Below, piece after piece: positions 790 to 27,000 of a stretch of 38,206 bases of DNA. The stretch covers positions 1 to 38,206 of the forward strand of contig JAAVDA010000016.1 of assembly GCA_014802045.1 (NCBI GenBank), read 5' to 3'. Both the position numbers and the translations under genes were made by a program. A model generated the notes under the pieces. That model was given only the letters and a program-made list of their open reading frames with translations, had not been told where the DNA came from and made no database searches. Numbering within the stretch: position 1 is the stretch's first letter; every line of letters begins with the position of its first letter. The DNA is from Bacteroides sp. Lineage in GTDB: Bacteria > Bacteroidota > Bacteroidia > Bacteroidales > Muribaculaceae.

Positions 790-823
790 AAAAAAGATTT
801 CTACTCAAGTAGAAATCTTTTTT
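790..823 (-). terminator. Rho-independent terminator of the cyuA-like transcript (probably bidirectional)
   Basis: Sixteen-base arms, 790-805 and 808-823, are perfectly complementary, with AAAAAAG at one end and CTTTTTT at the other. The hairpin therefore ends in a T-run in either direction. It lies 23 bases beyond the stop of the minus-strand gene ending at 847. Confidence 0.85.
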
Positions 824-846
824 GAAGGGTGATTGAGAGAGGGAGG

Positions 847-2133: not shown

Positions 2134-2152
2134 GGTGGTTTAGGGTCTACTC

Positions 2153-2851: not shown

Positions 2852-2888
2852 TTTGCAGAGCTATGTTATAGAACATTGCTCTGCAAAA
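2851..2888. promoter_or_regulatory. 38-bp dyad over the regulator's promoter and start codon (candidate operator)
   Basis: Outer arms TTTTGCAGAGC (2851-2861) and GCTCTGCAAAA (2878-2888) are perfect. Inside, ATGTT (2863-2867) and AACAT (2872-2876) form a second perfect dyad around ATAG on the same axis. The whole element runs from the start codon into the -7 box. The transcript should start inside it, so it acts more plausibly as a DNA operator than as an RNA hairpin. Confidence 0.7.
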
Positions 2889-2891
2889 TTA
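2884..2891 (-). promoter_or_regulatory. Promoter -7 box of the Crp/Fnr-cyuA unit
   Basis: On the minus strand the bases read TAATTTTG, a match to the Bacteroidetes -7 consensus TAnnTTTG, 33 bases before the start codon. I see no good -33 TTTG at the usual distance, which suits an activator- or repressor-dependent promoter. Confidence 0.6.
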
Positions 2892-2984
2892 GTGATTATT
2901 TGTGAGATAGAAAAATTCTTAACAATTTGGCTCCGCATCCGGGGGGCATGAACGGCCGAATGCTGCGGGGGAGGAGAGGGATTG

Positions 2985-3584: not shown

Positions 3585-3629
3585 ATACGGTGATTGATGA
3601 GTGATGGGTGATGAAATGGGGAGAGTGAA

Positions 3630-4385
3630 TCAGCGGCGCACGTCAATACCTTTTTCGGCCAGGCGGTCCTTGAGGTGGGCTATGGTTATCTGACCGTAGT
3701 GGAAGATGCTTGCGGCAAGCGCTGCATCAGCTTTGCCGAGACGGAACACATCAGCGATATCATCTACACTTCCGGCTCCTCCGGAGGCTATCACGGGGAT
3801 GCGGAGGATTTCGGCCATGCGGGCGAATGTGGAGCAGGGATATCCGCTGCGGGTGCCGTCGTGGTCCATGGATGTGAACATAATCTCTCCGGCTCCGCGC
3901 GATTCCATCTCTGTGACCCATGCCATGAGTTCGTGGTCGGTGGGTCTTGATCCGCCATGGGTGGTGATGCGCCACACTCCGTCGATGCATCTGGCGTCGA
4001 CAGCCACCACGATAAACTGGCTGCCGTAGCGAGCCGCAATCTCGCTTACGAGCTGCGGACGGGCTACGGCGGCACTATTGACAGTGATTTTATCGGCTCC
4101 TGCATCAAGGAGACGGGCGGCATCGTCGATAGACCTTATGCCTCCACCTACCGTGAATGGAATGTTTATGCGGTCGGCTATTCTCTCTACGAGCGATGTG
4201 AATGTGGTGCGGTCTTCGCGTGAGGCGCTGATGTCGAGATAGACCAGCTCGTCGGCTCCGTCGGAGGCATAGCGTGCGCCGAGCTCCACGGGGTCGCCAA
4301 CATCAACGAGGCCTTCGAAGTTGATGCCCTTGACAGTGCGTCCGTTTTTCACGTCAAGGCAGGGTATGATTCGTTTTGCCGGCAT
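3630..4385 (-). CDS. hisF: Imidazole glycerol phosphate synthase, cyclase subunit
   Basis: 251 residues, normal length. TIM barrel with the N-terminal IIPCLDVKNGRTVKGINF signature, whose Asp is a catalytic residue, then FTVGGGIRS, a second conserved Asp in VVAVDAR, and IASGGAG at the second phosphate site. It takes ammonia from HisH and turns PRFAR into IGP and AICAR. It lies 22 bases after hisA in the operon and 45 before hisIE. Confidence 0.96.
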   Translation of the reverse strand: MPAKRIIPCLDVKNGRTVKGINFEGLVDVGDPVELGARYASDGADELVYLDISASREDRTTFTSLVERIADRINIPFTVGGGIRSIDDAARLLDAGADKITVNSAAVARPQLVSEIAARYGSQFIVVAVDARCIDGVWRITTHGGSRPTDHELMAWVTEMESRGAGEIMFTSMDHDGTRSGYPCSTFARMAEILRIPVIASGGAGSVDDIADVFRLGKADAALAASIFHYGQITIAHLKDRLAEKGIDVRR

Positions 4386-4407
4386 AGTTTTTTTGAATTG
4401 TGTAAGA

Positions 4408-5136
4408 TTAACTGCGGGTTATGAAACTCTCGATGTCGCGGAGCGAGATACGGTTTTCGTAGATTGCCTTGCCGACGATAACTCTCGGCAGGGCGAGCGA
4501 GTTGAGCCGAATAATGTCGTCCATCGAGGAGATACCTCCCGACACAGTGAATATGAGCGAGGGATAGCGGCTCTGCAGGTCTGTGTAGAGTTCGGTGTGG
4601 GGGCCGGAGAGCATTCCGTCTTTAGAGATATCCGTACAAATCACCTGTGTGAGCCCGTGGGGCAGGAATTCTCCTATCACATCGTCGATTGTGAGAGACG
4701 AATCTTCGAGCCAACCGTTGACAGACACTTTACCCTGACGCAAATCGGCTCCGAGAATCACCCGGTCGCCGCCATAGGCAGAGAGCCATCGTTGCATAGT
4801 GGCGGGGCTTTTTACAGCGATACTTCCGGCTATGGCATAGTCGGCACCGGCATTGAAAGCGTCGCGCAGAGCTTCGTCGCTCTTCAGGCCTCCTCCCCAT
4901 TCGATTGCGGCCACACCGAGAGATGCCATGCGCTCAAGCACATGGAGATTGCGGGGAACGGCGGCTTTGGCTCCGTCGAGGTCAACGACATGAACACGGC
5001 GGATACCCGCATCGGCATACATCTTCACCATCTCTTCGGGAAGTGCCTTATATTGTGTGCAGCGTTCGTAGTCGCCTTGTGAGAGGCGCACGCAGCGGCC
5101 GTCAATCAGGTCTATCGCAGGGATAATCTCTATCAT
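4408..5136 (-). CDS. hisA: Phosphoribosylformimino-AICAR isomerase
   Basis: 242 residues. TIM barrel of the HisA/HisF family. The catalytic Asp is in IIPAIDLIDGRCVRL and the second in VICTDISKDGM, with phosphate-binding WGGGLKS and VSGGISS loops. It catalyses the Amadori rearrangement of ProFAR to PRFAR. Its start overlaps the hisH stop by 4 bases (ATGA-type), which indicates translational coupling. Confidence 0.96.
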   Translation of the reverse strand: MIEIIPAIDLIDGRCVRLSQGDYERCTQYKALPEEMVKMYADAGIRRVHVVDLDGAKAAVPRNLHVLERMASLGVAAIEWGGGLKSDEALRDAFNAGADYAIAGSIAVKSPATMQRWLSAYGGDRVILGADLRQGKVSVNGWLEDSSLTIDDVIGEFLPHGLTQVICTDISKDGMLSGPHTELYTDLQSRYPSLIFTVSGGISSMDDIIRLNSLALPRVIVGKAIYENRISLRDIESFITRS

Positions 5137-5717
5137 AGTTCGAGAAAGTTTCGGATTATATGCTCGCCCACATCACCGCTTTTTTCGGGGTGGAACTGGG
5201 TGCCGTAGAAGTTTTCATATTTGAGAGCCGCGCTAAACATCGTGCCGTGGCCGGATGTGGCTATAGTGTCGGGACATAGCGGGGCATAATAGCTGTGGAC
5301 GAAATAGACAAAAGAGCCGCTGTTTATATTCTTGAACAGTCGGCTTTCGAGATTGGCTATACGGCTCCAGCCCATGTGAGGAACTTTCAGGTGGGGGGAG
5401 TCAGCAAATCGGCGCACTTTGGCATCGAAAATGCCCAGGCAGTCTGCATCGCCTTCTTCAGTGTGGCGACACATCACCTGCATGCCCACACAGATGCCCA
5501 ACACCGGGTGGCGAAGATTTTTTATTACGTGGGTGAGATTGCGCAGGCGCAGATTGACCATAGCTTCCCCGGCGTGACCTACGCCGGGGAGCAATACTTT
5601 GTCTGCTTTTGAAATTGCAACGGGATCATCGGTCAGAATCCATTCGGCTCCAAGGCGGCGAAGCGCATTTTCCACCGACCGGATATTGCCCATCTTATAG
5701 TCTATAATTGCTATCAT
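5133..5717 (-). CDS. hisH: Imidazole glycerol phosphate synthase, glutaminase subunit
   Basis: 194 residues, class I glutamine amidotransferase. The nucleophile Cys sits in [10 protein letters not shown], and the His-Glu pair of the triad in TQFHPEKS near residue 180. It opens with [16 protein letters not shown], typical of HisH. It supplies ammonia to HisF. It overlaps both neighbours by 4 bases (hisB upstream, hisA downstream). Confidence 0.95.
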
Positions 5718-16382: not shown

Positions 16383-17999
16383 TTATTCATTCATAAATTC
16401 ATGAGGAGCGAAGTTCCAGTCGCGGGCACGGAGCATTGGCTCCTGAGCGCGGATTCGGGTGCGGAAATCGGAGTAGTCGCGGAGATTCTGAGGAGTCCAG
16501 GCCGCCTCGGCCACAGCTGCCAGACGGGGCATCATCAGATATTCGAGAAATTCGGGAGTTATCACATATTCCGACCAGAAGTTGGCCTGCACCCCGAGAT
16601 ATTTGTCGTGCAGATTGGCCGGCACATTCTTTAGCGGCACATAATTGTAGACAGCTTCGAGGGTTTCTGTGCCTGCACCCTGCGACACCGGTTCGGTGGC
16701 GAGAGGCGACTGCTTGCGGTTTATGTAGTAAGGAATCTGGGGAGAAAGAATTGTGGTCATTCCGCGGCCTGCGGCATCGAGGGCAGCCTTGTCGGCACCC
16801 ACCCATGCCATAATGGTGATGTCAGAAGGAAGCATATCGGTGTTGCCGTGGAGCACTTCATTCCAGAAAATCAGCTTGCGGCGGTCTGACTCGGGTTTGG
16901 TGGCCATATGGTCATTGAGCTGCTTGTAGAAGTTGAGCTGCAGGTCGCGGAAATTTGTGGAGCCTATGCTGTCGAGTTGAGCCACACACTGGGCATTTGC
17001 TTCCCATTTGTCGGTGGGGCATTCGTCACCCCCGAGATGGAGATAAGGGAACGGGAAGAGAGGCACGAGCTCATCGATGATATCCTTGGCCATCTGCACT
17101 GCGGCAGGGTTGGCCACATTCATCACGTCGGGCGACACTCCCTGCATCAGCCACACTTCGTGGGGATTTTCAGGATCACAGGCCAATAGCTCCGGATAGG
17201 CGGCAACGGCAGCCTGAGTGTGGCCGGGTATGTCAATCTCGGGCACTACTTCTATGAATCGGTCAGCCGCATAGGCCACTATCTCGCGGATATCATCCTG
17301 AGTGTAGAAGCCGCCGTAGGCCACGGTGTCGGGCTCCATTTTGCGCCATCCGAGTGATTTGCTGCCGCGCTGAGCGCCGACTTCTGTAAGCTTGGGATAT
17401 TTCTTTATCTCGATGCGCCATCCCTGGTCTTCGGTGAGATGCCAGTGGAAACGGTTCATCTTATAGGCGGCCATCATGTCGAGCACTTTTTTCACCTCAT
17501 CTTTGCCGAAGATATGGCGACCCTCGTCAAGCATGAACCCGCGCCATCCGAAGCGTGGAGCATCGGCAATTTCCAAGCAGGGGAGTGTGGCGGGAGCTGT
17601 CTGAGTGGTGAAGGGGAGCAGCTGGCGGAGAGTCTGAAGGGCATAGAAGAACCCCGCCGGGCGTGAGGCGGCGGCCGTAATGCCCTGCGGATTTATGGAG
17701 AGTAGATAGGCTTCAGGGCCAAGGTCGGGATTTAGAGTGAGGTTGATTTCGGCTTTTCCGGTGGCAGGAGTGAAAGTGGTACCGGCGCCTTTTTCAAGGT
17801 CTGCCTTAAGGAGGTTGAACACGTGGGCTACACTGTCGCCGGCATAGGCTGGCACAGAGTATGTGGTCGGAGAGCTGAAGCGGAATTCACCGGAAATCTC
17901 TGTGACAGACGCCGGTTTTGGCACTAAGGGTGTGGTGGCTGCAACAGCGGTTGCTGCGATAAATCCGAGCATCAGCGAGATGAGGGGTTTGATTCTCAT
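16383..17999 (-). CDS. Beta-N-acetylhexosaminidase, glycoside hydrolase family 20
   Basis: 538 residues with a signal peptide (about 1-20, LISLMLGFIAATAVA). An N-terminal GH20b domain (about 22-145) precedes the catalytic TIM barrel (about 148-500). The catalytic Asp-Glu pair is in LHLGGDECPTDKWEA. FHWHLTEDQGWRIEIKKYP and IPEIDIPGHTQAA-like (VPEIDIPGH) segments are also typical. It removes terminal GlcNAc/GalNAc from glycans by the substrate-assisted mechanism, probably in the periplasm or at the surface, as in host-glycan-foraging Bacteroidales. It is a single-gene unit read divergently from the DUF418 gene, with a dyad over its promoter. Confidence 0.93.
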   Translation of the reverse strand: MRIKPLISLMLGFIAATAVAATTPLVPKPASVTEISGEFRFSSPTTYSVPAYAGDSVAHVFNLLKADLEKGAGTTFTPATGKAEINLTLNPDLGPEAYLLSINPQGITAAASRPAGFFYALQTLRQLLPFTTQTAPATLPCLEIADAPRFGWRGFMLDEGRHIFGKDEVKKVLDMMAAYKMNRFHWHLTEDQGWRIEIKKYPKLTEVGAQRGSKSLGWRKMEPDTVAYGGFYTQDDIREIVAYAADRFIEVVPEIDIPGHTQAAVAAYPELLACDPENPHEVWLMQGVSPDVMNVANPAAVQMAKDIIDELVPLFPFPYLHLGGDECPTDKWEANAQCVAQLDSIGSTNFRDLQLNFYKQLNDHMATKPESDRRKLIFWNEVLHGNTDMLPSDITIMAWVGADKAALDAAGRGMTTILSPQIPYYINRKQSPLATEPVSQGAGTETLEAVYNYVPLKNVPANLHDKYLGVQANFWSEYVITPEFLEYLMMPRLAAVAEAAWTPQNLRDYSDFRTRIRAQEPMLRARDWNFAPHEFMNE

Positions 18000-18046
18000 G
18001 GCTATGACTGAATATAAGAAGTTAGTATATTATGATTTCTGTAGTT

Positions 18047-18072
18047 TGGACAAAGGTAGTCATCTTTGTCCA
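18047..18072. promoter_or_regulatory. Inverted repeat over the GH20 promoter (candidate operator)
   Basis: TGGACAAAG (18047-18055) and CTTTGTCCA (18064-18072) are perfect 9-base arms with an 8-base spacer. The repeat covers the start region, the -7 box and part of the spacer of the hexosaminidase promoter. The spacing fits a dimeric repressor. The regulator is not evident in the window. Confidence 0.55.
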
Positions 18073-18082
18073 GACATGCAAA
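18051..18082 (-). promoter_or_regulatory. Promoter of the GH20 gene
   Basis: Minus strand: TTTG (18079-18082), 20 bases, TACCTTTG (18051-18058). Expected start near 18046, giving a 47-base leader. Confidence 0.75.
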
Positions 18083-18102
18083 TTTTCACTAAGCCGGATA
18101 AT

Positions 18103-18133
18103 TTTGCAGATAAAAGTAGTTTTATTAATTTTG
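18103..18133 (+). promoter_or_regulatory. Promoter of the DUF418 gene
   Basis: TTTG (18103-18106), 19 bases, TAATTTTG (18126-18133). Expected start near 18138. It stands back to back with the GH20 promoter, the two -33 boxes being only 20 bases apart. Confidence 0.75.
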
Positions 18134-18174
18134 CCACTAAGTGCTACCCCGAAAACACTACATAGATTTAGCAA

Positions 18175-19383
18175 ATGAAACCCAATAGTTCTTCTGTGCG
18201 GCATAAGAGAGTAGACGTGGCCGATGTGCTTCGTGGATTTGCAGTGCTTGCCATCATCCTTATCCATTCGATAGAGCATTTCAATTTCTACTCTTTTCCC
18301 GACACATCGGGTCAGAGCGCATGGCTCAATTTCACCGACCGGGCTATCTGGGATTCGCTGTTTTTTGTGATAGGCGGTAAGGCTTATGCGATTTTCGCGC
18401 TGCTTTTCGGCTTCAGTTTCTTCATTCAGGACGATAACCAGCGTATGCGCGGAAATGATTTCAGGCTTCGCTTCTGCTGGAGATTGATTCTGCTCTTTAT
18501 TGTAGGTCAGCTCAATGCAGCGTTTTTCACCGGTGAAGTTCTGGTGCTGTATGCGTTGGTGGGCTTCATCCTTGTGGCCGTGTGCCGTCTGCCCGACAGA
18601 TGGGTGATTGGTCTTGCAGTAGCGTGCGTTTTGCAGCCGGTGTGTATCTGGCAGGTGCTCAGGTCTCTGATTTCGCCCGACTATGTGGTGCCGACCATCA
18701 ACACCGGGGCTTTCTGGGAAGCTACATTTACAGCCCAGACATCGGGCACTTTTCTCGAGATGCTCAAAGTGAATCTCTGGGAGGGACAGCTTGCCTCGCT
18801 TGCATGGGCGTGGGACCACGGGCGGGTGTTTCAGACCGCAGGGCTTTTTATGACCGGAATGCTGATAGGTCGGCGCGGATGGTTCAAGAGCTCCTTCCTT
18901 CCCGGATGGGGAAAAGTCCTGGCGGTAAGCCTGGTTCTTTTCTTCCCTCTTCACGCACTTGACAGCATGGTGGGCGACTTCATCACCAATCGCAATACTC
19001 TCGTGCCGCTCAAGATTATTCTTTCGTCGCTCGCCAACCTGTGCTTCATGTTTATTCTCGTGAGCGGGATAATGTTTGCTTACTATCGGTGGACCTCCAT
19101 TAGCCGACTTCTCTCGCTCCTTATACCCTATGGACGTATGAGCATGACCAACTATGTGACCCAAGGTATCATCGGTTCATTCCTATATTATCACTGGGGA
19201 TTATATCTCCGGCTCGGCATCACGGCCAGTCTGCTCGTCGGCGTAATAATCTTTATTGTGCAATATCTTGCATGCCGCCTCTGGGTGAACCATCACAACC
19301 ACGGTCCCCTTGAATATCTCTGGAAGAAAGCCACGTGGATAGAACTCCCGCCCTTCGTCCGGTTGCACTACAAAGGTAGATAA
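18175..19383 (+). CDS. DUF418 family integral membrane protein
   Basis: 402 residues with about nine hydrophobic segments. Family marks: the N-terminal DVLRGFAVLAIILIH segment, ALLFGFSFFIQ near residue 75, and a C-terminal DUF418 domain (about 240-400) ending in HHNHGPLEYLWKKATW. DUF418 proteins (YeiB-like) sit in the inner membrane. Their function is not firmly established, though relation to acyltransferase-type membrane proteins has been suggested. The start ATG is 37 bases after the predicted transcription start. Read away from the hexosaminidase gene. Confidence 0.88.
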   Translation: MKPNSSSVRHKRVDVADVLRGFAVLAIILIHSIEHFNFYSFPDTSGQSAWLNFTDRAIWDSLFFVIGGKAYAIFALLFGFSFFIQDDNQRMRGNDFRLRFCWRLILLFIVGQLNAAFFTGEVLVLYALVGFILVAVCRLPDRWVIGLAVACVLQPVCIWQVLRSLISPDYVVPTINTGAFWEATFTAQTSGTFLEMLKVNLWEGQLASLAWAWDHGRVFQTAGLFMTGMLIGRRGWFKSSFLPGWGKVLAVSLVLFFPLHALDSMVGDFITNRNTLVPLKIILSSLANLCFMFILVSGIMFAYYRWTSISRLLSLLIPYGRMSMTNYVTQGIIGSFLYYHWGLYLRLGITASLLVGVIIFIVQYLACRLWVNHHNHGPLEYLWKKATWIELPPFVRLHYKGR

Positions 19384-19681
19384 AAATCTGGGATTTGTCT
19401 TAGGTTTCGGTGCAATTGTTGGCATATGCCTTATGGGGAGCATTCTGCTGTCGAACTCTGCGTCTGACAAAAAACACGAATACGAACAATATATAACGGA
19501 ACTTGACCGCTAGCATCAAGAAAAGATCGAGGCAATCTCCTTCGGGAAATCCTGCCGTGAGAACTATCCTAAGAAGTACCGTGAATGGCAAACCGGGCGC
19601 TGGCAGCATGACATAGCTTATCGCGACTCCCTCATCCGCACCCACTCCCTCGACCGCCTGAAACGACTGCACGAATACTAA
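19379..19681 (+). pseudogene. Interrupted small ORF with a hydrophobic N-terminus (in-frame TAG)
   Basis: One frame stays coding-like from inside the end of the DUF418 gene to a TAA at 19679-19681, broken only by a TAG at 19511-19513. The first part reads as a membrane anchor (LGFVLGFGAIVGICLMGSIL) followed by a charged stretch. After the stop it continues as a Lys/Arg/Glu-rich piece (FGKSCRENYPKKYREW, then RLKRLHEY). The first ATG in frame is at 19433. The even quality on both sides of the TAG suggests one gene of about 100 codons broken by a nonsense change. The NYPxxYxxW pattern recalls the N-terminal region of NrfA, but no haem motif is present, so I do not assign it. Confidence 0.45.
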
Positions 19682-19732
19682 AAGTCACTTTTAATTTTCT
19701 ATTTTTAGAGTATTTGTTTAGCACTGCCACTT

Positions 19733-19758
19733 TTTGTCAGTGGCGTTTATTAACTTTG
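19733..19758 (+). promoter_or_regulatory. Island promoter A (TTTG-N14-TAACTTTG)
   Basis: TTTG (19733-19736), 14 bases, TAACTTTG (19751-19758), 17 bases before the metallophosphoesterase start. The short spacing recurs at three other island genes. Confidence 0.6.
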
Positions 19759-19775
19759 CAGAAATAATAGAAATT

Positions 19776-20384
19776 ATGAAAATACTTCATCTTTCAGACA
19801 CCCATGCAGCGCATCATCGACTCCATGAACTACCGGAGGCTGATGTCGTGGTTCACTCAGGCGACTTCTGTATGGTCGGAGAGGAACGAGAAGCATTGGA
19901 TTTCCTCAACTGGTTTTGTGATTTGCCATATCGACATAAGATTTTTATTTGTGGGAATCACGACTCATGCCTCTATGGAGCAAACATTGATGGTCTTGAC
20001 AGCAATGTCCACTATCTATGTAACTCAGGCATTGAGATTGAGGGATTAAAATTCTATGGCGTTCCAATGTTTATGGAAGATTGCGTTACCAATCGTCAAA
20101 CAAGTTACTATACGAATACACCGGCTGATACAGATATTCTTATAACACATTCACCAGCCTATGGTATTCTTGACCTTGATGACAGCATAGATGGTGAGTT
20201 TATCCACTACGGTTCAGAAGAAATTTTAGCACTTGTTATGAAGATTCATCCTCGCGCACATCTTTTCGGACACATACATCGCCAGCATGGATTAACTAAA
20301 CAAAATGGCATTATCTTCTCAAACGGAGCGATAATGAACGAAGACTATTCACGACTCAATATACCAAATATAATAGAGACCTAA
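19776..20384 (+). CDS. Calcineurin-like metallophosphoesterase
   Basis: About 202 residues from the ATG at 19776. A longer frame opens at 19734, but its start lies upstream of the -7 box, and MKILHLSDTHAAHH is the natural N-terminus. All metal-binding motifs of the fold are visible: DTH, VVHSGDF, CGNHDSCLYG, LITHSP and FGHIH. Such small enzymes hydrolyse phosphodiesters (cyclic nucleotides, nucleic acid ends). The substrate is not predictable here. The next gene starts 3 bases after its stop, so the two form one unit. A/T-rich codon use, unlike the his genes. Confidence 0.85.
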   Translation: MKILHLSDTHAAHHRLHELPEADVVVHSGDFCMVGEEREALDFLNWFCDLPYRHKIFICGNHDSCLYGANIDGLDSNVHYLCNSGIEIEGLKFYGVPMFMEDCVTNRQTSYYTNTPADTDILITHSPAYGILDLDDSIDGEFIHYGSEEILALVMKIHPRAHLFGHIHRQHGLTKQNGIIFSNGAIMNEDYSRLNIPNIIET

Positions 20385-20387
20385 GCT

Positions 20388-21218
20388 ATGTCGGTATCAA
20401 AATTTAAACGTGTTCTATGGGCATTGAACGAATTTGTCAACGCCTACCCCGTAGGCATTTCGATAGAAGAGTTGAGTAAAAAATGGTCATACTCCTCTAT
20501 GAATGATGATAAAGAGCCTGATATCCCAGAACGCACCTTCCATCGAGTTCGACGGGCTGTAGAAAGTGCTTTTGGCGTTACTATAGAGTGCCATAAAGGA
20601 GCAGACCCTCGCTACCGGGTATCATCCAAAGACCTTGAACCCGGAAATAATAGTTTGCTAAATCTATTTTTAAGCAAAGCTGATAACGATAATGAAAAAT
20701 CTAAATCTGTAAGAGAAATTCTGAGTCTGATAATGTCCGGTTCAAATATTCCTGAAAACGATATGAAAGCTGTCAATGACATTGTAAATACCCTCAGAAG
20801 AGTCCCATACGAATCGTGCAAACAGCTTATGGCTTCAGTAGAAGCTGGAGAAATTCGAGGTGCGAATCGATGTGATTGGGATGAGGATTACAGAGGATAT
20901 GTTTGTATATGGAATGAAGCAGACTATAATCGTACTGATTTGTGGCTCTCAATCGGCTTCTATTATGATCGGGTACTCTTCTATGTTGTCACCAGTGTTC
21001 AATATATTGAATATCGCAATAAGGTTTCAAAACTACTCCAAGTAAACAACGAGGATATATACAAGAGTGACTATTGGTGGTTTGAACCCACCGACAAATC
21101 GCTGTTTCAACTCGACTTTCAGACATTACCTGACATGAAAGAAGTTAAACACCGCGCGGAGCTTCTTATTGCAAGAATAGCGGAATTATCTAAGGAAATT
21201 CAGAAACCGAAAGAATAA
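20388..21218 (+). CDS. HTH protein related to Bacteroidetes WYL-type regulators, with an unidentified C-terminus
   Basis: 276 residues. Residues about 1-85 match the winged-HTH start of Bacteroidetes WYL proteins: an L/I-rich helix, ISIEELSKKWSYSSMND, IPERTFHRVRRAVESAFGVTIECHK and a YRVSSKDLE strand. After a Ser/Asn/Lys linker (about 85-105) the C-terminal part (about 110-276) has no recognisable WYL domain. It shows an aromatic-rich region (GYVCIWNEADYNRTDLWLSIGFYYDRV) and ends in a charged helix. Probably a DNA-binding regulator or sensor acting with the metallophosphoesterase encoded just upstream. That role is inference. Confidence 0.6.
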   Translation: MSVSKFKRVLWALNEFVNAYPVGISIEELSKKWSYSSMNDDKEPDIPERTFHRVRRAVESAFGVTIECHKGADPRYRVSSKDLEPGNNSLLNLFLSKADNDNEKSKSVREILSLIMSGSNIPENDMKAVNDIVNTLRRVPYESCKQLMASVEAGEIRGANRCDWDEDYRGYVCIWNEADYNRTDLWLSIGFYYDRVLFYVVTSVQYIEYRNKVSKLLQVNNEDIYKSDYWWFEPTDKSLFQLDFQTLPDMKEVKHRAELLIARIAELSKEIQKPKE

Positions 21219-21249
21219 AATTTAAAGGTTTTATGTTTCAGTGACTACT

Positions 21250-21275
21250 TCTGGCAGCAAGATACTGTAATTTTG
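21250..21275 (+). promoter_or_regulatory. Island promoter B (TCTG-N14-TAATTTTG)
   Basis: TCTG (21250-21253), 14 bases, TAATTTTG (21268-21275). The upstream TGACTACTTCTGGCAGC is identical at all but one position to the segment before promoter C at 22591. Confidence 0.55.
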
Positions 21276-21309
21276 TGTCGTAAAACATAGCGAGCGCCTG
21301 CGATAACCC

Positions 21310-21340
21310 TTTGCGGTTCAAAATATAATTCGTAAATTTG
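21310..21340 (+). promoter_or_regulatory. Second promoter upstream of the UDG-like gene
   Basis: TTTG (21310-21313), 19 bases, TAAATTTG (21333-21340): standard spacing. It would start transcription about 317 bases before the next gene. Confidence 0.7.
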
Positions 21341-21346
21341 CGACAA

Positions 21347-21594
21347 TAACCACCTAAACGCGAAAATACGAAACAGACAGTTTAGAACCACATAAGATAT
21401 TGCACATCTTGCAATGACAGCCATCCGATTCGGTAAAATCTGGTAAATTCTACAAGGAATCATAAGATGGAAGTCAATGGCAATCCGTGTATCCTCATCC
21501 GAGGACGCAGGCTGCTTTTGCTTCAATCTTGATTCCGGGCTTACCAGAGCCTTACCGAAAGAGAGACCCAAAAGAGTGTTGTGTCCTCTTTTTT
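21347..21594 (+). ncRNA. Candidate leader RNA or small RNA, about 250 nt
   Basis: This stretch has a consensus promoter at its 5' side and ends in a weak terminator-like hairpin, AAAAGAG (21570-21576) with CTCTTTT (21586-21592) plus further T. A CCTC-ATCC-GAGG hairpin lies in the middle (about 21492-21503). A 21-codon frame (MEVNGNPCILIRGRRLLLLQ) and a 108-codon frame on the other strand exist, but neither resembles a known protein. Function unknown. It could be a long 5' leader of the UDG-like gene or a separate sRNA. Confidence 0.4.
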
Positions 21595-21663
21595 ACATAG
21601 CAGACATTCGACTACTGGATGAGGCGAAACAATAAAAACATAAATCACAAAAATAACAACATT

Positions 21664-22452
21664 ATGAGTTATTCTTTTGAAGAAAATGAAAAAATAATAC
21701 AAAAATGGAGAGATCGAGCTGCCAAGGACGGTGATGGAGACGTTTCTTCAGACGGTGTGTATTACAAAGGTGAATTATACCTTGAACCAAATTCAAACCA
21801 AATGTGGCGTCATGTTGGCGAGGAAGATGCGCAATGGGCTACCGCTAAGAGACGCATTCTATTTGTGTCTAAAGACTCAAATGAAGCCGATAATGCGTAT
21901 GATTTCAGAGGTATAGATCTGACTCACAATACAGACGGATCTCTTTCGTTCGGATGTCGGTTCAATCAGAATCTTCTACGTATCACTACCGGATTGAGTG
22001 CTATTACTAAGGATGGTTACCCCTCCTTTAAAGACGTAAATAATATAGAATATGTCAACAATATATGGCATGATACAGCTATCGCAAGAATTAACTTAAA
22101 GAAACACTCCGGAGGATCCTCTTGCTCAAACTCAAAACTGAGTGAAAGTATTGAGAAATATCAGGATTTGATTCTTGATCAGATGAAGCTTCTTGCTCCA
22201 AACATAATAGTTTGTTGTGGAGGAAGCGGGATTATCAAGGATTTCGTAATAACAAAATTCTTAGGAATAGAGAACCCCAAAGACATTAAATCAGAAACTG
22301 ACAACTGGATTTATTACTCTCCAAGCAAAGATGTATGGGTTATCGACTCCTATCATATGAATCCCATGGGAAACTCTACGGACGAGGAACTTTATGAAAA
22401 CATCATGAAATATCTACTGGAAGGCTTAAAAAATCATCAGACAAAAATCTGA
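21664..22452 (+). CDS. Uracil-DNA-glycosylase-superfamily-like protein
   Basis: 262 residues from MSYSFEEN. An upstream in-frame ATG at 21619 would add only a low-complexity Asn/Lys leader. The pattern is that of the UDG fold: strand KRRILFVSKDSNEAD at the motif A position, HDTAIARINLKK in the middle, strand APNIIVCCGGSG, and DSYHMNP at the place of the His-containing motif B (normally HPS). The catalytic Asp/Asn of active glycosylases is not clear, so it may be a non-glycosylase relative. Neighbour of defence-like or RNA-repair-like genes; role unknown. Confidence 0.45.
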   Translation: MSYSFEENEKIIQKWRDRAAKDGDGDVSSDGVYYKGELYLEPNSNQMWRHVGEEDAQWATAKRRILFVSKDSNEADNAYDFRGIDLTHNTDGSLSFGCRFNQNLLRITTGLSAITKDGYPSFKDVNNIEYVNNIWHDTAIARINLKKHSGGSSCSNSKLSESIEKYQDLILDQMKLLAPNIIVCCGGSGIIKDFVITKFLGIENPKDIKSETDNWIYYSPSKDVWVIDSYHMNPMGNSTDEELYENIMKYLLEGLKNHQTKI

Positions 22453-22475
22453 CATTCTCTCACTCTCGGATTCTT

Positions 22476-22516
22476 GTACCGCAAAATTACGACTGTGATG
22501 TCTCATTTTGCGGTAC
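22476..22516 (+). terminator. Terminator of the UDG-like gene, inside repeat copy 1
   Basis: GTACCGCAAAAT (22476-22487) and ATTTTGCGGTAC (22505-22516) are perfectly complementary, followed by a T-run at 22518-22523, 24 bases after the UDG-like stop. Confidence 0.7.
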
Positions 22517-22517
22517 A
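22478..22517 (-). repeat. 40-bp repeat, copy 1 (inverted relative to copy 2)
   Basis: Read on the minus strand it matches 23212-23251 at 35 of 40 positions, including the loop half GAGACAT and the -7-like TAATTTTG. Each copy is itself palindromic (CCGCAAAAT / ATTTTGCGG, 17-base loop). Confidence 0.65.
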
Positions 22518-22598
22518 TTTTTTATATTCCGTTGACAATTTTGATAGCTTCATGCTGACTTGGTATATATTTATTCAAAAAATTTCAGACTGACTACT

Positions 22599-22624
22599 TT
22601 TGGCAGCCGTGTGTTCTAACTTTG
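22599..22624 (+). promoter_or_regulatory. Island promoter C (TTTG-N14-TAACTTTG)
   Basis: TTTG (22599-22602), 14 bases, TAACTTTG (22617-22624), preceded by TGACTACTTTTGGCAGC, which differs from the segment at promoter B in one base. Drives the DUF6140-like gene. Confidence 0.65.
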
Positions 22625-22639
22625 CACTCATAATAGCAA

Positions 22640-22685
22640 GTTGAGCATTAAGGCTCGACAGGTAACCGACTCACCTGAAGAGTCG
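22640..22685 (+). promoter_or_regulatory. Structured leader with two alternative foldings
   Basis: Hairpins GTTGAGC-ATTAAG-GCTCGAC (22640-22659) and CGACTC-ACCTGAA-GAGTCG (22667-22685). CAGGT (22659-22663) can instead pair with ACCTG (22673-22677) in the loop of the second, so the two folds compete. Lies between promoter C and the gene at 22707. Confidence 0.45.
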
Positions 22686-22706
22686 CAACACTAAAAATTA
22701 ATAAAT

Positions 22707-22946
22707 ATGCCAATTTGGAAAGTAACAGCCAAACGTAAGTTTGACAGTGGAGTAGTATCGTTCTCTCCCGGAATGAGTGTAGAAATCCCAACCACTACAC
22801 TTTCGTCCTCTTTTTGGACGCAGTCCCAGTATCGCAGAGCTATTGCGGAACGTTTCGTGTCACAATATGATCTGAAATGTCCGGTGGCGAAGTTTGAACA
22901 GCAGGTCAACAATGCCAACTTCGACTACACGTTGGTGTCGAAATAA
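22707..22946 (+). CDS. Small DUF6140-like protein
   Basis: 79 residues. The N-terminal MPIWKVTAKRKFDSG strand and the GMSVEIPTTT motif (about 22-31), followed by an AIAERFVSQYDLKCP helix and a C-terminal strand, resemble the small Bacteroidetes family I know as DUF6140. I recall that family name from memory. No function is known to me. Its promoter, structured leader and following hairpin make a self-contained cassette, and a frameshifted relative lies 70 bases downstream. Confidence 0.65.
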   Translation: MPIWKVTAKRKFDSGVVSFSPGMSVEIPTTTLSSSFWTQSQYRRAIAERFVSQYDLKCPVAKFEQQVNNANFDYTLVSK

Positions 22947-22961
22947 CGAGTTAAATTAATC

Positions 22962-22998
22962 TGTCAGGGAGATGAGGTTCTCGATCATCTCCCTGACA
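22962..22998 (+). terminator. Perfect 14-bp stem-loop after the DUF6140-like gene
   Basis: TGTCAGGGAGATGA (22962-22975) and TCATCTCCCTGACA (22985-22998) with a 9-base loop, 15 bases after the stop. No T-tract follows, so termination or 3'-end protection is inferred from stability and position only. Confidence 0.6.
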
Positions 22999-23018
22999 TA
23001 AACACCATTAAATACAAT

Positions 23019-23242
23019 ATTTATTCATTTCAATGGACTGTAAAAGTAACGAGGCCAGTAGGAAATCTTCCGGTAGGCCCATGGGTAGAGATAATCACGA
23101 CCACCATGAAACCGTCAATGCTTGAAATCTTCAAGCATTTGAACAAAAGTATGGCGTAAAACTCCCCTGCGTTTCTTACCAGCACTTTGATATCCGAAAA
23201 GTAGTTATTACTGTCCCGCAAAATGAGACATGCCTGTCATAA
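23019..23242 (+). pseudogene. Frameshifted DUF6140-like paralogue
   Basis: One frame (through 23037, stop TAA at 23157-23159) reads WTVKVTRPVGNLPVGPWVEI then ITTTM. A second frame, open after a TGA at about 23123, continues LQAFEQKYGVKLP and YQHFDIRKVV to a TAA at 23240-23242. Joined by a single-base indel around 23125-23140 they align with the intact neighbour (VEIPTTT ~ VEIITTT; AERFVSQYDLKCP ~ LQAFEQKYGVKLP). No ATG begins the first frame. Only ATT codons (23007, 23019) are available, so the start is lost too. Confidence 0.6.
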
Positions 23243-23251
23243 TTTTGCGGT
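23212..23251 (+). repeat. 40-bp repeat, copy 2, containing the tRNA-like gene's -7 box
   Basis: Palindrome CCGCAAAAT (23216-23224) / ATTTTGCGG (23242-23250) with a 17-base loop, an inverted relative of 22478-22517. Its right arm contains TAATTTTG (23240-23247), a -7 box placed to start transcription about 10 bases before the tRNA-like gene. Confidence 0.65.
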
Positions 23252-23262
23252 TAAATAATATC

Positions 23263-23353
23263 AGCCCGGTGGCGGAATTGGTCAGACGCGCTTTATATTA
23301 GACGGAAAGTGCCCTGTGATGGGGTATTGCCGGTTCGAACCCGGCCCGGGCTG
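23263..23353 (+). tRNA. Class II tRNA-like gene, leucine-type body, anticodon UAG, aberrant anticodon arm
   Basis: Perfect 7-bp acceptor (AGCCCGG with CCGGGCT), D-arm GCG/CGC with a leucine-like GAATTGGTCAGA loop, long variable arm (23310-23328, CCC/GGG) and a perfect T-arm GCCGG-TTCGAAC-CCGGC. The anticodon loop ATTAGAC gives anticodon UAG (codon CUA, Leu). Oddities: the anticodon stem has six pairs including A-G and U-G, the D-loop is one base longer than in common tRNA-Leu, the first pair is A-U, and the discriminator base is G rather than the A expected for leucine. CCA is not encoded. It is either a divergent mobile-element tRNA, a decoy or a decaying gene. Confidence 0.7.
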
Positions 23354-23368
23354 CAAAATTTAAATAAT

Positions 23369-24244
23369 ATGAACCAACCGATAGTATTTCTGGACTTCGA
23401 CGGAGTTTTAAACACCGAACAATATCAGGCACGGCTTACAGTCGATGATAAGCCGACTAAAGATACTTGGGGACCACTATTTGATCCTCATGCGGTAGAG
23501 AACTTGCGACAGATACTTGACGAGATGGATGCTCAGATTGTCATATCTTCATCCTGGCGATATGTCCATAGCCTTGACAGCCTGCGCACTATGTGGGTGA
23601 CGCGTGATTTGCCGGGAGAAATTCTTGACACTCTTGCTTGCGGAGCAACTGATATTTCGCGTGGAGAAGAGATTGAATGTTGGCTCGAACGCAATGATCG
23701 TCCCGATTACGCGATAATCGACGACCTCGACGACTTCTCTCCAGCTCAACGCGACCACTACGTTGAGACAAATCCGATAGTCGGAATTACGGAAGCCGAT
23801 GCACAAAAAGCAATCGAAATACTCCAAAAATCCCGTGCGGAAAGACGAAAGTTAGCAAGAATCAGAAACTCTGAAAAGGCAGCTTACTGGCGCAAAGTTT
23901 TTCAGGATATGAGGTCTGAATCCATCGCCAAGATGCACAAGCGACACGTATTCCTTTCGGATTTAGTGAAAGAATACACCAATCTCGAAGACTTTGCACG
24001 TGATAAAAGCGAATTCTTTGAAATGATGGGAGTGGAATTTGGTAGTGGTGAGAAGTGTATTTCTTTGTATTTCCAACTGGATTACAATGACTATGAACAG
24101 TATTTTGTGGTTCCGACTAACGATGGCCGGTTGGCAGTGAGCCACGTAATCTGGTGGCAAAACGAAGTCTGCGCCAATGAGATTCTCAATATCTTCACAG
24201 GCGAAACCTACGACGATGACGACGTGATTCTGACTACTTATTGA
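23369..24244 (+). CDS. HAD phosphatase of the RNA-repair (SAK) type with a C-terminal extension
   Basis: 291 residues from MNQPIVFLDFDGVLNTEQ. An upstream in-frame ATG at 23309 lies inside the tRNA-like gene and is rejected. Residues about 1-155 are a HAD domain: nucleophile pair in FLDFDGVLN, motif II in IVISSSWRY, acidic motif III in YAIIDDLDDFS. This matches the 'HAD domain in Swiss Army Knife RNA repair proteins'. The remaining part (about 160-291), with a basic helix (RAERRKLARIRNSEKAAYWRK) and a mixed C-terminal domain, is unknown to me. It begins 15 bases after the tRNA-like gene and probably shares its transcript. Confidence 0.75.
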   Translation: MNQPIVFLDFDGVLNTEQYQARLTVDDKPTKDTWGPLFDPHAVENLRQILDEMDAQIVISSSWRYVHSLDSLRTMWVTRDLPGEILDTLACGATDISRGEEIECWLERNDRPDYAIIDDLDDFSPAQRDHYVETNPIVGITEADAQKAIEILQKSRAERRKLARIRNSEKAAYWRKVFQDMRSESIAKMHKRHVFLSDLVKEYTNLEDFARDKSEFFEMMGVEFGSGEKCISLYFQLDYNDYEQYFVVPTNDGRLAVSHVIWWQNEVCANEILNIFTGETYDDDDVILTTY

Positions 24245-24284
24245 AAACTTTTTACAAAACAATCAGAATAAATAAGTTAATACA

Positions 24285-24968
24285 ATGAACCTCTTTCAAC
24301 TTCTGAAGAATGTAAATTTTGATCAGGTTTTCTCTGAAATCCTACAGTTTGTGCCCGATATAGCGTTTATCCGAGATAAATTCATGCATATGTGTGAGTT
24401 CTTATGCATAATTCCACCTGATAAGAAGGAGACCATTATGGTGGATGTATTTGAGGAGAACTATCTGGGAGAGGGTGTGATTAATGTACGTTTATTGGCG
24501 ACAGAAAAAAACATTTCCAATCTCTCCGATTTTGGTCTGATTAAGGATATGGTTTTTCCACTCTACTTTTCCCACTCATCTATACCTCCGACTCCAATCA
24601 CACGTATTATAGCGTCCATTATCTGGAATTTGGTGGCGATAGAAGGAATGAGTGATATCTCTTTGCAGAATGAGATTCATGATTGTGAAGAAGTGGCAGA
24701 GATGATATATAGCGTAACTGGATTCAACTCCCCACTTGATAAGGCCGCTTATAAAATCATTTGCATACTCGATGATTATATGTGGAGAGATGAGGATAGA
24801 ACAATAGTATATTTGTATTCTTCTCGGGGATATGAACAGGAAGTGGAAAAGATAACCGAATTCATAATGGGCATGATGAGAAAGCCCACAATTGTCTATG
24901 GAACCAATTCTCTTCGCGGTATTGCTATGAAAGCATATTTTCTGAAGAATCGATCTTGTAACATTTGA
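24285..24968 (+). CDS. Uncharacterised protein, distantly DUF6557-like
   Basis: 227 residues, no signal peptide. The start MNLFQLLKNVNFDQVFSEIL has the same arrangement as the gene at 25023 (an L/F-x-N-x-x-F-x-x-V helix, then a second helix beginning with an Arg, IRDKFMHM versus VRNLYKTL), so the two look like diverged paralogues. The rest is mainly alpha-helical and acidic. It starts 40 bases after the HAD gene, probably in the same transcript. I know no function; an immunity-like or sensor role is a guess. Confidence 0.6.
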   Translation: MNLFQLLKNVNFDQVFSEILQFVPDIAFIRDKFMHMCEFLCIIPPDKKETIMVDVFEENYLGEGVINVRLLATEKNISNLSDFGLIKDMVFPLYFSHSSIPPTPITRIIASIIWNLVAIEGMSDISLQNEIHDCEEVAEMIYSVTGFNSPLDKAAYKIICILDDYMWRDEDRTIVYLYSSRGYEQEVEKITEFIMGMMRKPTIVYGTNSLRGIAMKAYFLKNRSCNI

Positions 24969-24983
24969 AATTTTATCTCATTG

Positions 24984-25018
24984 ATGCCATGTTTTGGCAT
25001 ACTTACTCAGTAATTTTG
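24984..25018 (+). promoter_or_regulatory. Island promoter D (TTTG-N14-TAATTTTG) with an overlapping inverted repeat
   Basis: TTTG (24993-24996), 14 bases, TAATTTTG (25011-25018). The inverted repeat ATGCCA-TGTTT-TGGCAT (24984-25000) covers the -33-side box. The -7 box ends only 4 bases before the ATG at 25023, so the mRNA would be leaderless or nearly so. The bases TAATTTTGCGGTA are shared with repeat copy 1. Confidence 0.6.
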
Positions 25019-25022
25019 CGGT

Positions 25023-25862
25023 ATGATTTACAAAGATTATTTTATAAACTCTGAGTTTGAAGATGTGTGGCGCACACTTCAGACCTACTATAATGAGCCT
25101 GAAAGCGTCAGGAATTTGTATAAGACATTGTTTTATACAATCCGGAATATGTCGATTGATGAAGCACATTCCGACACTCCGCTAAAGGTTGAAATCGACT
25201 TCGAGGGTATGATTCATGTTGCCGGTGCTCCTGACCCTATTGAATGGTTGGTGGGACGTGAGGTGGTTTTCAAAGATGAAGAAGCGACATCAGGTCAGTA
25301 TGCCGTGTCTGAACTTGCAGCACACTTGCTCTATTGGTCGACGCTTTACGACTTCAAGACCCAGACACGTCACAATAAGGACTTTAAGCAGTATCTTGAC
25401 TCATTGGAAAGCGGCTCTGTCCGCTATTCGATGGAGGATTCCGGTAAGGCTCTTAGCCGGCACCGTAAGATGTCATATTATTGGAAGGAAACAGTAGCCC
25501 ATGATTCAGCTATAAGCTGGAGCTATATCCTGGATATTCTGCGTAAACGAATAGAGTTTCATATCGGTTACCACCGCTACACTGACCGGTATGTAAACAG
25601 TAAGCACTATGTGTCGCGTATGGAACTCTGCTGCAGGCTTCTTGATTTGGCGGCGGCAGACTATTATGATATGAACGGTGTATATGTCAATCCCCGAAAT
25701 TCTTCCCGGTTTATCGGACCGATTTTCAATGAATATCATTATAAAGATATCATTGAAGGAGAGACCGATGACGAATATACATTGTCAGAACTGCGCCGTG
25801 CCAAAGCCTACAAGATACTCTGGAAATTCCTCGACCACAACCTCACCTACTGGTGGGATTAA
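25023..25862 (+). CDS. DUF6557-like uncharacterised protein
   Basis: 279 residues, cytoplasmic. N-terminal region (about 1-75: FEDVWRTLQTYYNEPESVRN, then LYKTLF) has the helix arrangement I associate with Bacteroidetes DUF6557 proteins. A central segment, HLLYWSTLYDFKT, looks like their second conserved helix. The C-terminal half is rich in Tyr, Arg and His and ends KILWKFLDHNLTYWWD. Paralogue-like to the gene at 24285. It precedes the FtsZ-like gene by 59 bases, with no terminator between, so they may be co-expressed. Function unknown. Confidence 0.65.
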   Translation: MIYKDYFINSEFEDVWRTLQTYYNEPESVRNLYKTLFYTIRNMSIDEAHSDTPLKVEIDFEGMIHVAGAPDPIEWLVGREVVFKDEEATSGQYAVSELAAHLLYWSTLYDFKTQTRHNKDFKQYLDSLESGSVRYSMEDSGKALSRHRKMSYYWKETVAHDSAISWSYILDILRKRIEFHIGYHRYTDRYVNSKHYVSRMELCCRLLDLAAADYYDMNGVYVNPRNSSRFIGPIFNEYHYKDIIEGETDDEYTLSELRRAKAYKILWKFLDHNLTYWWD

Positions 25863-25921
25863 GATAGAGACACGCAAAATAAATATATAAAATAGTAGTC
25901 ACTCAATAAAATAATGAAGTT

Positions 25922-26326
25922 ATGAATAATGAAGTTACGATGTGGGAGGGTCATCCTGTGAATGGCGACCCCGGCGAACTTGATATCATTGTGGCAAATC
26001 CCGGTATAGTAGCCCTTGATAAGCAAGACCTTATTCAGGTGCTTGAAGAGGAAGGGGAGGCATATATAGTAAGCGGAGTTGGTGCTAAGCTCGGCGATGC
26101 TTTCACGGCCGCAGTAGAGGCCATGCCTTGCCCGAAGGGGGCGGTGAGAGATGTGGTCGTGTCCCTGCAATACGGCGATAAGGATTTCTCAATGTCTGAG
26201 CTTGCCACGCTCAACACCTATTTTGAATCTCTCGGTGAAGATGTGAATATCATCTGGGGTTCAACACGCAACGATAATCTGTCTGGTTCGATAAAGGTAG
26301 TGATGGTGATTAATGTGAAAAACTAA
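25922..26326 (+). CDS. Stand-alone FtsZ C-terminal-domain-like protein
   Basis: 134 residues. From residue 26 it follows the second half of FtsZ. NPGIVALDKQDLIQVL aligns with the FtsZ T7 loop and helix H8 (usual form xPGLINxDFADVxxVM), keeping both aspartates (Asp33, Asp36) that complete the GTPase site of the next subunit. Then GEAYIVSGVGA ~ GxAxMGxGxA, AFTAAVEAM ~ the AAxxAxxxPL helix, RDVVVSLQYG ~ the GAxxxLxNIxG strand, MSELATLNTYFE, and the hallmark VNIIWGSTRNDNL followed by IKVVMVI. The N-terminal GTP-binding domain with GGGTGTG is entirely missing, and so is the C-terminal FtsA/ZipA-binding tail. Truncation by a frameshift is unlikely because its own start and a short new N-terminus are present. 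Likely a modulator or capper of FtsZ filaments. Confidence 0.65.
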   Translation: MNNEVTMWEGHPVNGDPGELDIIVANPGIVALDKQDLIQVLEEEGEAYIVSGVGAKLGDAFTAAVEAMPCPKGAVRDVVVSLQYGDKDFSMSELATLNTYFESLGEDVNIIWGSTRNDNLSGSIKVVMVINVKN

Positions 26327-26369
26327 TCACTATGTGGATAGCAAGTCTTGACTGATACAGACACAAACG

Positions 26370-26406
26370 GAGGGCGCGCAGACCTGAATGGTTCTGACGC
26401 GCCCTC
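26370..26406. terminator. Hairpin between convergent genes
   Basis: GAGGGCGCG (26370-26378) pairs with CGCGCCCTC (26398-26406), extended inside by CAGA/TCTG. It separates the plus-strand FtsZ-like gene from the minus-strand ahpC. The T-tracts are poor on both sides, so it is a probable, not certain, bidirectional terminator. Confidence 0.6.
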
Positions 26407-26433
26407 GGCGTTTAGGTTGACTTTCGGTTATAA

Positions 26434-27000
26434 TCAGATTTTGCCTACGAGCTCAATGCCGGGTGTGAGGGTCTTGTCACCCTTCTTCCAGCGGGCAGGG
26501 CAAACCTGATCGCCATGTTCGGCCACAAACTGAGCGGCTTCGAGCTTGCGGAGAAGCTCTTCGGAATTACGTCCGATGCCATTGTCGTTGATTTCGGCAA
26601 TTTTGATGACTCCCTGCGGGTTGACCACGAAAGTGCCGCGATATGCGAGGAAATCGTCGGGGTTGAGCACTCCGAATGCTTCGCTCAGAGCGCCGGTCTT
26701 GTCGGCAAGCATGGGGAACTGCACCTTACGGATGCTTTCGGATGAGTCGTGCCATGCTTTGTGGGTAAACTGGGTGTCGGTGCTCACGGCATAGACCTCA
26801 GCACCGAGGGCTTTGAACTTGTCGTAGTTCTCGGCCATGTCAACCAGCTCTGTGGGGCATACAAAGGTGAAGTCGGCCGGGTAGAAAAAGAAGATTGCCC
26901 ATTTGCCGGCTACATCTTTGTCGGTTATACGTTTGAATTCGCCGTTGACAAATGCTTCTACGGAAAATTCGGGAAGGGTAGTGTTGATAATTGTCTTCAT
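26434..27000 (-). CDS. ahpC: Alkyl hydroperoxide reductase subunit C (2-Cys peroxiredoxin)
   Basis: 188 residues, full length. The peroxidatic Cys is in FTFVCPTEL (near residue 48) and the resolving Cys in DQVCPARW (near 167). The FFYPADFTF loop is typical. It reduces hydrogen peroxide and organic peroxides in the cytoplasm. The reductant AhpF is not in this window. It follows uvrA by 110 A/T-rich bases without a visible terminator, and I find no TAnnTTTG box there. Confidence 0.96.
   Translation of the reverse strand: MKTIINTTLPEFSVEAFVNGEFKRITDKDVAGKWAIFFFYPADFTFVCPTELVDMAENYDKFKALGAEVYAVSTDTQFTHKAWHDSSESIRKVQFPMLADKTGALSEAFGVLNPDDFLAYRGTFVVNPQGVIKIAEINDNGIGRNSEELLRKLEAAQFVAEHGDQVCPARWKKGDKTLTPGIELVGKI

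Follow-up and report, generated by a model that had tools for sequence, protein, structure and literature searches.

What is the role of a gene that encodes only the C-terminal half of the cell-division protein FtsZ in a genome that also encodes the intact protein? The question is raised by the window, i.e., the whole analyzed stretch of 38,206 nt from a Muribaculaceae genome that is 75.7% complete. Profile and homologue searches identify there a free-standing FtsZ C-terminal-domain protein of 134 aa (25922..26326, forward strand), which we assign to a family termed FZ-A; the intact FtsZ of the same genome is encoded on a separate contig. The first-pass annotation of the locus had proposed that this protein contains an FtsZ C-terminal domain, keeps both aspartates of the T7 loop, and lacks the GTPase domain. 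All three points hold. The domain occupies residues ~20-130, with curated and structural libraries in agreement: (i) the NCBIfam ftsZ model TIGR00065 matches at 3e-6 over model positions 205-321, (ii) FtsZ chains from PDB match from 6.7e-5, (iii) an HMM built on 11 Muribaculaceae FtsZ sequences matches at 4.9e-11, and (iv) Pfam FtsZ_C matches at 4e-4, below the gathering score. The match to the family HMM rules out chance similarity. The protein aligns collinearly with FtsZ, starting at the end of H7 and continuing past T7 up to the final strand. It has no GTPase domain, the open reading frame starting just before T7, and no C-terminal linker or tail peptide either, the protein ending within a few residues of the last aligned strand. 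Alignments place the T7 loop at residues 28-36 (26003..26029, forward strand), with G28, D33, and D36, the two aspartates corresponding to D210 and D213 of Staphylococcus aureus FtsZ; the usual asparagine (N208 in S. aureus) is replaced by A31. The predicted structure is only fair, and FtsZ is not among the best 50 Foldseek matches listed.

A close homologue is encoded in 15 of the 297 Muribaculaceae genomes, the window genome included. These FZ-A proteins are 30-43% identical to the window protein, and most of them share its start position and have a similar length, in line with the earlier suggestion that the protein has an N-terminus of its own. Among five close homologues from one subgroup, dN/dS ranges from 0.19 to 0.85 and is below 1 in all 10 pairs, the two highest values being observed at small distances. 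The intact FtsZ elsewhere in the genome, the common start and length of the homologues, and the dN/dS below 1 rule out a broken ftsZ, as had been claimed before. Some copies are truncated, e.g., the one in locus L058 ends early at a stop codon. A second set of C-terminal domains, FZ-B, was found in 9 of the 297 genomes, along with more distant, separate or degenerate forms.

Close relatives of the window gene have moved horizontally. In three genomes of three genera (G266, G074, and G173), the dS between FZ-A genes is 0.08-0.34 versus 1.4-2.4 between the respective FtsZ genes (three pairs), and therefore these genes were transferred. The transfer signal is limited to these relatives and gives no date for the window copy, for which FZ-A dS is saturated (1.85-2.39), the same as for FtsZ. 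The family itself is likely confined to Muribaculaceae, judging from the genomes sampled. In an order-wide sample, 351 of 393 genomes match the FZ-A profile, full-length FtsZ included; outside Muribaculaceae, the open frame around each of the listed matches is 252 aa or longer, and all 45 matches in 21 order genomes chosen for having more than one match sit in frames of at least 377 aa. A first scan of a genome contig collection gave no matches and a second found 8 loci, whose titles name Muribaculaceae, Paramuribaculum, or Barnesiella; the named matches carry the titles Muribaculaceae, Paramuribaculum intestinale DSM 100749 (with an FZ-A homologue), or Barnesiella. Three queries found no relative in a viral contig collection. 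A plasmid collection yielded two matching records, one annotated as ftsZ and the other carrying no annotation under the match. The single match in a phage collection is an unverified 5.9-kb scaffold, MT837932.1 (L074), which encodes RtcB-, WYL-, exonuclease-, and DUF6140-like proteins and a mini-FtsZ with a degenerate N-terminal part (595-5584). The RtcB-, WYL-, exonuclease-, and FtsZ-like genes of this scaffold resemble a bacterial island, and the scaffold, although deposited as phage, is probably one. From the matches in these collections, an origin from phages or plasmids was rejected.

Other unusual FtsZ forms were observed in the course of these comparisons. Four genomes belonging to a single genus (L050, L052, L061, and L062) encode a compact FtsZ_C-like family, FZ-C (~118 aa), next to an amidohydrolase gene; its T7 loop keeps the D213 equivalent and not the D210 equivalent. 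Two loci encode additional FtsZ paralogues of nearly full length, which stop shortly past the C-terminal domain (L056, 6957-7973; L057, 9568-10695), each adjoining another divergent FtsZ_C-like gene (L056, 6130; L057, 10583). One Muribaculaceae genome has tandem full-length FtsZ genes (L106, 9228-11933), and closely spaced FtsZ copies also occur in other families of the order.

The proposal that the window gene lies in an accessory island was borne out by comparison with congeners. In three of them (G231, G171, and G074), the GH20 gene directly adjoins the AhpC gene; in the window, 8.4 kb separate GH20 (16383-17999) from AhpC (26434-27000). This segment (18000..26433), which includes a DUF418 gene and ends in the FtsZ_C gene, is absent from the three congeners. 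Among the 12 congener AhpC loci compared, six have UvrA in the same place and three of these have GH20 beside AhpC; the remaining nine have no GH20 within the 1.5 kb read. The GC content is 0.41 over 19734-26326 versus 0.52 and 0.51 in the flanks. No integrase was found among the island proteins scanned.

The following island genes lie on the forward strand. The most upstream of these encodes a calcineurin-like phosphoesterase (19734..20384, likely start 19776; Pfam Metallophos 1.1e-11). It is followed by a regulator-like protein (20388..21218) that clusters with WYL proteins and has no Pfam WYL domain, a protein of a group called UDG-like by eye only (21619..22452), for which neither Pfam nor PDB searches gave a meaningful match in support of that label, and a DUF6140 protein (22707..22946; Pfam 2.7e-6). 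Next come a HAD_SAK_2 phosphatase-like protein (23309..24244, likely start near 23369; Pfam 4.9e-29), a 227-aa protein (24285..24968) with one homologue (L038, 8e-32), no Pfam or PDB match, and an N-terminus that by eye only is like that of DUF6557-like proteins, and, directly upstream of the FtsZ_C gene, a DUF6557-like protein (25023..25862; Pfam DUF6557 E-value 4e-4, below the gathering score). The structure model of the latter is poor (pLDDT 52.5, pTM 0.44), and no reading was drawn from it. The last four genes, from HAD_SAK_2 to FtsZ_C, with gaps of 41, 55, and 60 nt, are, from their spacing, probably one operon. Between the convergent FtsZ_C and AhpC genes, the fold of 26330-26432 (MFE -41.8 kcal/mol) contains a GC-rich stem-loop (26370..26406), not reported by a pattern scan, that is a possible two-way terminator. 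The island genes do not bear out the first-pass idea of a defense or conflict cassette. Searched with PADLOC 2.0.0, seven window proteins (the phosphoesterase not among them) gave no defense model that matches FtsZ_C and one weak CARF match for the regulator (E-value 0.025). The neighbors suggest an island of the phosphatase, nucleic-acid-repair, and ADP-ribose type. No RtcB ligase gene is labelled in the window and no ADP-ribosylglycohydrolase in its island, the single match to the latter in this genome being on contig C17.

A survey for homologues beside the same neighbors, as proposed in the first-pass annotation, shows that several gene families recur; the neighbor sets vary between loci and contain no known checkpoint gene. 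Near the 16 FZ-A loci, several of which lie on short contigs, we found DUF6557-like proteins in 9 by phmmer (11 with two by-eye groupings, L041 and L045), HAD domains in 8 (the window, L032, L033, L034, L036, L042, L045, and L072; L038 has only the C-terminal extension and was excluded), calcineurin-like phosphoesterases in 7, WYL-cluster regulators in 7, members of two phmmer groups labelled UDG-like by eye in 7, exonucleases in 3, RtcB in 2, and an FtsK-like protein in 1. Loci L066-L071 repeat those already counted and were left out; the count skipped genes overlapping the anchor base, and CBD genes beside L047 and L053 were seen separately. As a background, HAD_SAK_2 is present in 10, the phosphoesterase in 20, and ADP-ribosylglycohydrolase in 50 of 101 relatives. 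Five of the 20 phosphoesterase genomes (G000, G216, G002, G009, and G259) have an FtsZ half in the same island, and therefore such islands often lack an FtsZ half.

In a few loci the FtsZ C-terminal domain is joined to another protein: one of the 16 FZ-A (L042) and two of the nine FZ-B (L048 and L105) are fusions, and the window copy is unfused. The 671-aa protein of L048 (7883-9898, genome G093) comprises the FtsK alpha domain, the SpoIIIE motor, and the gamma domain, with an FZ-B domain at the end, and an ADP-ribosylglycohydrolase gene follows directly. In L042 (1071-1937), a HAD_SAK-type protein and FtsZ_C share one open frame of 288 aa. The FZ-B domain of L105 is preceded by ~240 residues of no assigned nature. 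FtsK was seen in two further loci, L045, where an FtsK-like gene adjoins FZ-A, and L134. A 501-aa protein upstream of FZ-A in L072 (5354-6859) matches both the HAD and the DUF6557-like families.

We aligned 35 orphan domains, defined as C-terminal domains whose protein has no intact GTPase domain (some are fused to FtsK, to HAD, or to a degenerate N-terminal segment), and removed near-duplicates to obtain 30. The equivalent of D36 (D213) is present in 33 of 35 and 28 of 30, being absent from two of the 35; that of D33 (D210) is present in 22 of 30 and missing from three of the eight aligned FZ-B, and both aspartates are gone in L105. By eye, D213 equivalents were also read in L122, L130, and L134, outside these counts. 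Among 55 columns, taken from window residue 24 onward and conserved in at least 11 of 12 FtsZ sequences, the median column is retained in 8 of 30 orphan domains. D36 ranks third of the 55 and first among charged residues; only W112 and L41 rank higher. According to the available part of PMC8936486, the catalytic water of S. aureus FtsZ is held by D210 and D213, the T7 loop is shaped by N208, and D210N, D213N, and N208L each suppress assembly. The simplest reason for keeping D36 in proteins that have no nucleotide site would be its use in the nucleotide site of another protein, and we see no other evident reason for the retention of the T7 aspartates in a protein lacking the GTPase domain. Alternatively, an Asp early in helix H8 could serve to cap the helix or to shape the loop.

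Our preferred reading, with a probability of roughly 0.45, is that the half-FtsZ acts in trans on host FtsZ, as a cap or hydrolysis trigger that would pause division. The C-terminal half includes the T7 loop together with the bottom (C-terminal) face and has no nucleotide face. We infer that, upon an inducing signal, it would bind head-to-tail to the GTP face left exposed on an FtsZ monomer or at a filament end, take the place of the next subunit, and, as it could not itself be extended, cap the filament; its two catalytic aspartates may trigger GTP hydrolysis in the capped subunit. Division would thus be slowed or paused while co-located island enzymes handle damage or attack, namely the calcineurin-like and HAD phosphatases in the window and RtcB, exonuclease, and ADP-ribosylglycohydrolase in relatives. 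The net role would be that of a SulA-like brake built from FtsZ itself. Docking on the GTP face is supported in part by three observations: (i) the 28 of 30 retention of the D213 equivalent, (ii) the head-to-tail pairing, when GTP is added, of the N- and C-terminal parts of S. aureus FtsZ as separate fragments, according to the part of PMC4496089 at hand, whereby a free C-terminal half is expected to dock on FtsZ-GTP, and (iii) the FtsK-FtsZ_C fusion. Both the FtsK and HAD fusions are as expected of an FtsZ-docking module. Also counted in favor are the complementary N-terminal half described below and, among close FZ-A relatives, the horizontal transfer and the dN/dS below 1. Against the cap stands the fate of the N208 equivalent: the residue, critical for S. 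aureus assembly (PMC8936486, as far as available), survives in no more than 11 of the 30 orphan domains and in 3 of the 11 non-redundant FZ-A, being lost in the other 8, the window included. Further points against it are the orphan domains that lack one or both aspartates, the varied neighbors, the saturated dS of the window copy, and the only fair structure model. In Salmonella, the SOS response induces RNA-repair operons (PMC9879122, from its accessible part), and by analogy this makes a coupling of such islands to a division brake plausible.

The comparison also revealed a complementary family that the first-pass annotation had missed. Using a GTPase-domain-only open reading frame near FZ-A in L041 as a query, we found a separate FtsZ N-terminal half in 14 of 297 genomes, one of these being a 63-aa piece and one carrying a stop. 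The genes (L041, 8603-9154; L121-L130, L132, and L133) usually lie beside a calcineurin-like phosphoesterase gene and often near RtcB and WYL-cluster genes. In 11 loci, i.e., without L127 (repeats L125), L131 (stop), and L133 (63-aa piece only), the phosphoesterase is found in 8, or in 10 when the overlapping cases L122 and L130 are added, the WYL cluster in 8, and RtcB in 6. The 11 aligned halves end before H7 and retain much of the nucleotide-binding signature. They lack one stretch of FtsZ, which from FtsZ anatomy we take to be the T3-loop region. Loci L125 (G259) and L127 (G200) have the same gene layout with identical coordinates, which may reflect recent transfer or assembly contamination. 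We tentatively extend the cap to this family, though we would not yet wager on it: the two halves, both carried by accessory islands, would cap opposite ends of host filaments in trans, with the nucleotide face of the N-terminal half set beneath a T7 loop and the T7 of the C-terminal half on the GTP face, so that repair or conflict islands would bring along a division checkpoint made from its own target.

As the main rival to capping, we consider that the half-FtsZ is a decoy or guard that mimics the surface hit by FtsZ-directed toxins or phage proteins and soaks them up, with ADP-ribosylglycohydrolase and phosphatases erasing the modification. This is somewhat unlikely for the window protein and fits FZ-B better than FZ-A. 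An ADP-ribosylglycohydrolase gene lies within ~7 kb of 6 of the 9 FZ-B loci, in four of them (L047, L048, L051, and L105) as the next gene, versus 1 of the 16 FZ-A loci. FtsZ is indeed attacked in both ways: the ADP-ribosylating effector Tre1 targets it at Arg174 (PMC7827354, available in part), and phage T7 Gp0.4 targets it as well, the Gp0.4-FtsZ complex being sensed by a defense protein (PMC13423816, likewise). The islands resemble the predicted anti-ADP-ribosylation host systems of PMC9503650 (section 3.8), and the strong divergence and mobility of the genes fit an arms race. However, ADP-ribosylglycohydrolase is missing from the window island itself, the best-kept charged residue is a catalytic one, and no toxin gene was recognized among the neighbors by annotation of the island genes alone. 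An arginine-directed decoy is ruled out by the absence of a conserved arginine column in the 35 orphan domains, where the best column reaches 9 of 35. Arg174, by FtsZ numbering, presumably falls in the N-terminal half.

The C-terminal half might instead be one part of a split paralogue, functional only together with the separate N-terminal half, the two restoring a divergent mini-FtsZ that forms a filament of its own. Both halves are neighboring genes in L041, and in L134 (439-1422), which also has FtsK-like and ADP-ribosylglycohydrolase genes beside it, a 327-aa protein matches the N-terminal-half model at 5e-37 and the FZ-A model at 5e-12, the FZ-A start motif lying where the two parts join; therefore, both families derive from a single divergent FtsZ, of which each is one half. 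Of the 297 genomes, 22 carry the C-terminal half (FZ-A or FZ-B), 14 the N-terminal half, and 4 both, which exceeds the expected number (P 0.014). But the near-complete genome G173 (one contig, 98% complete) has FZ-A and no free N-terminal half at E <= 1e-12, and none was found in the window genome at its lower completeness. Moreover, only one half is seen in 28 of the 32 carrier genomes, although many of these assemblies are incomplete, and the stretch missing from the N-terminal half also speaks against this reading. Obligate pairing is improbable.

Less probable still is a function as an address tag that brings partner enzymes, such as the FtsK motor, HAD, and others, to FtsZ filaments without capping them. 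The FtsK-FtsZ_C fusion, which starts at the FtsK alpha domain, the single HAD-FtsZ_C frame of L042, and the ~240 residues ahead of the L105 domain point in this direction, but most copies, including that of the window, are unfused. Finally, a decaying remnant, or an unrelated re-use of the fold without FtsZ contact, agrees with the strong divergence, the truncated copies, and the loss of both aspartates in L105, but is hardly credible given the common start and similar length of most FZ-A, the dN/dS below 1 in that one close subgroup, and the near-universal D213 equivalent.

If the half-FtsZ does cap host filaments, it would be a natural dominant-negative protein of the tubulin family, a literal half of FtsZ with the catalytic loop, and would link the control of division to islands of the repair type in gut bacteria. 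For in vitro work it would also be a one-subunit reagent that caps filaments and triggers GTP hydrolysis, and the complementary N-terminal-half family makes both filament ends separately testable.

Comparison with known systems shows what the window protein shares with each of them and where it departs. With FtsZ it shares a homologous, collinear C-terminal domain with both T7 aspartates; it differs in lacking the GTPase domain, linker, and tail, in the replaced T7 asparagine, and in being encoded in an accessory island, with the intact ftsZ elsewhere. SulA, of the SOS checkpoint, and MciZ resemble it in the proposed outcome, a small protein that would stop FtsZ assembly. To our knowledge, neither is homologous to FtsZ, and the FtsZ inhibitors that we can name are all unrelated to it. 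MciZ, in the available text of PMC8456036, caps FtsZ filaments and binds H10 and strand 9 of FtsZ, whereas the window protein would present its C-terminal face and bind the GTP face.

The predicted host systems centered on ADP-ribosylglycohydrolase (PMC9503650, section 3.8) combine that enzyme with WYL or Nudix regulators, calcineurin-like or HAD phosphatases, and variable accessory genes in islands. Both kinds of coupled phosphatase are present in the window island (19734-20384, calcineurin-like; 23309-24244, HAD), but the glycohydrolase is not, and that section names no FtsZ component. The NTP-dependent conflict systems of PMC7159879 include FtsK ATPase domains and rare members of the FtsZ/tubulin superfamily, with no C-terminal-only FtsZ domain mentioned in the portion of the text available. 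FtsZl1 (PMC2875224, also available in part) is another member of the superfamily with altered domain content; it is described there as having no similarity to known FtsZ/tubulin C-terminal domains, whereas the window protein keeps the C-terminal domain alone. Among the matches listed from the open-licence PMC literature, no title or abstract describes a natural gene family for a C-terminal-only FtsZ. Another likeness is the engineered split FtsZ, for which the accessible part of PMC4496089 describes a separate C-terminal half with the central helix that pairs with the N-terminal half on GTP addition. That pair was constructed in the laboratory from the S. aureus protein, carries fluorescent tags, and has K175D in its N-terminal half, whereas the half in the window is a natural gene.
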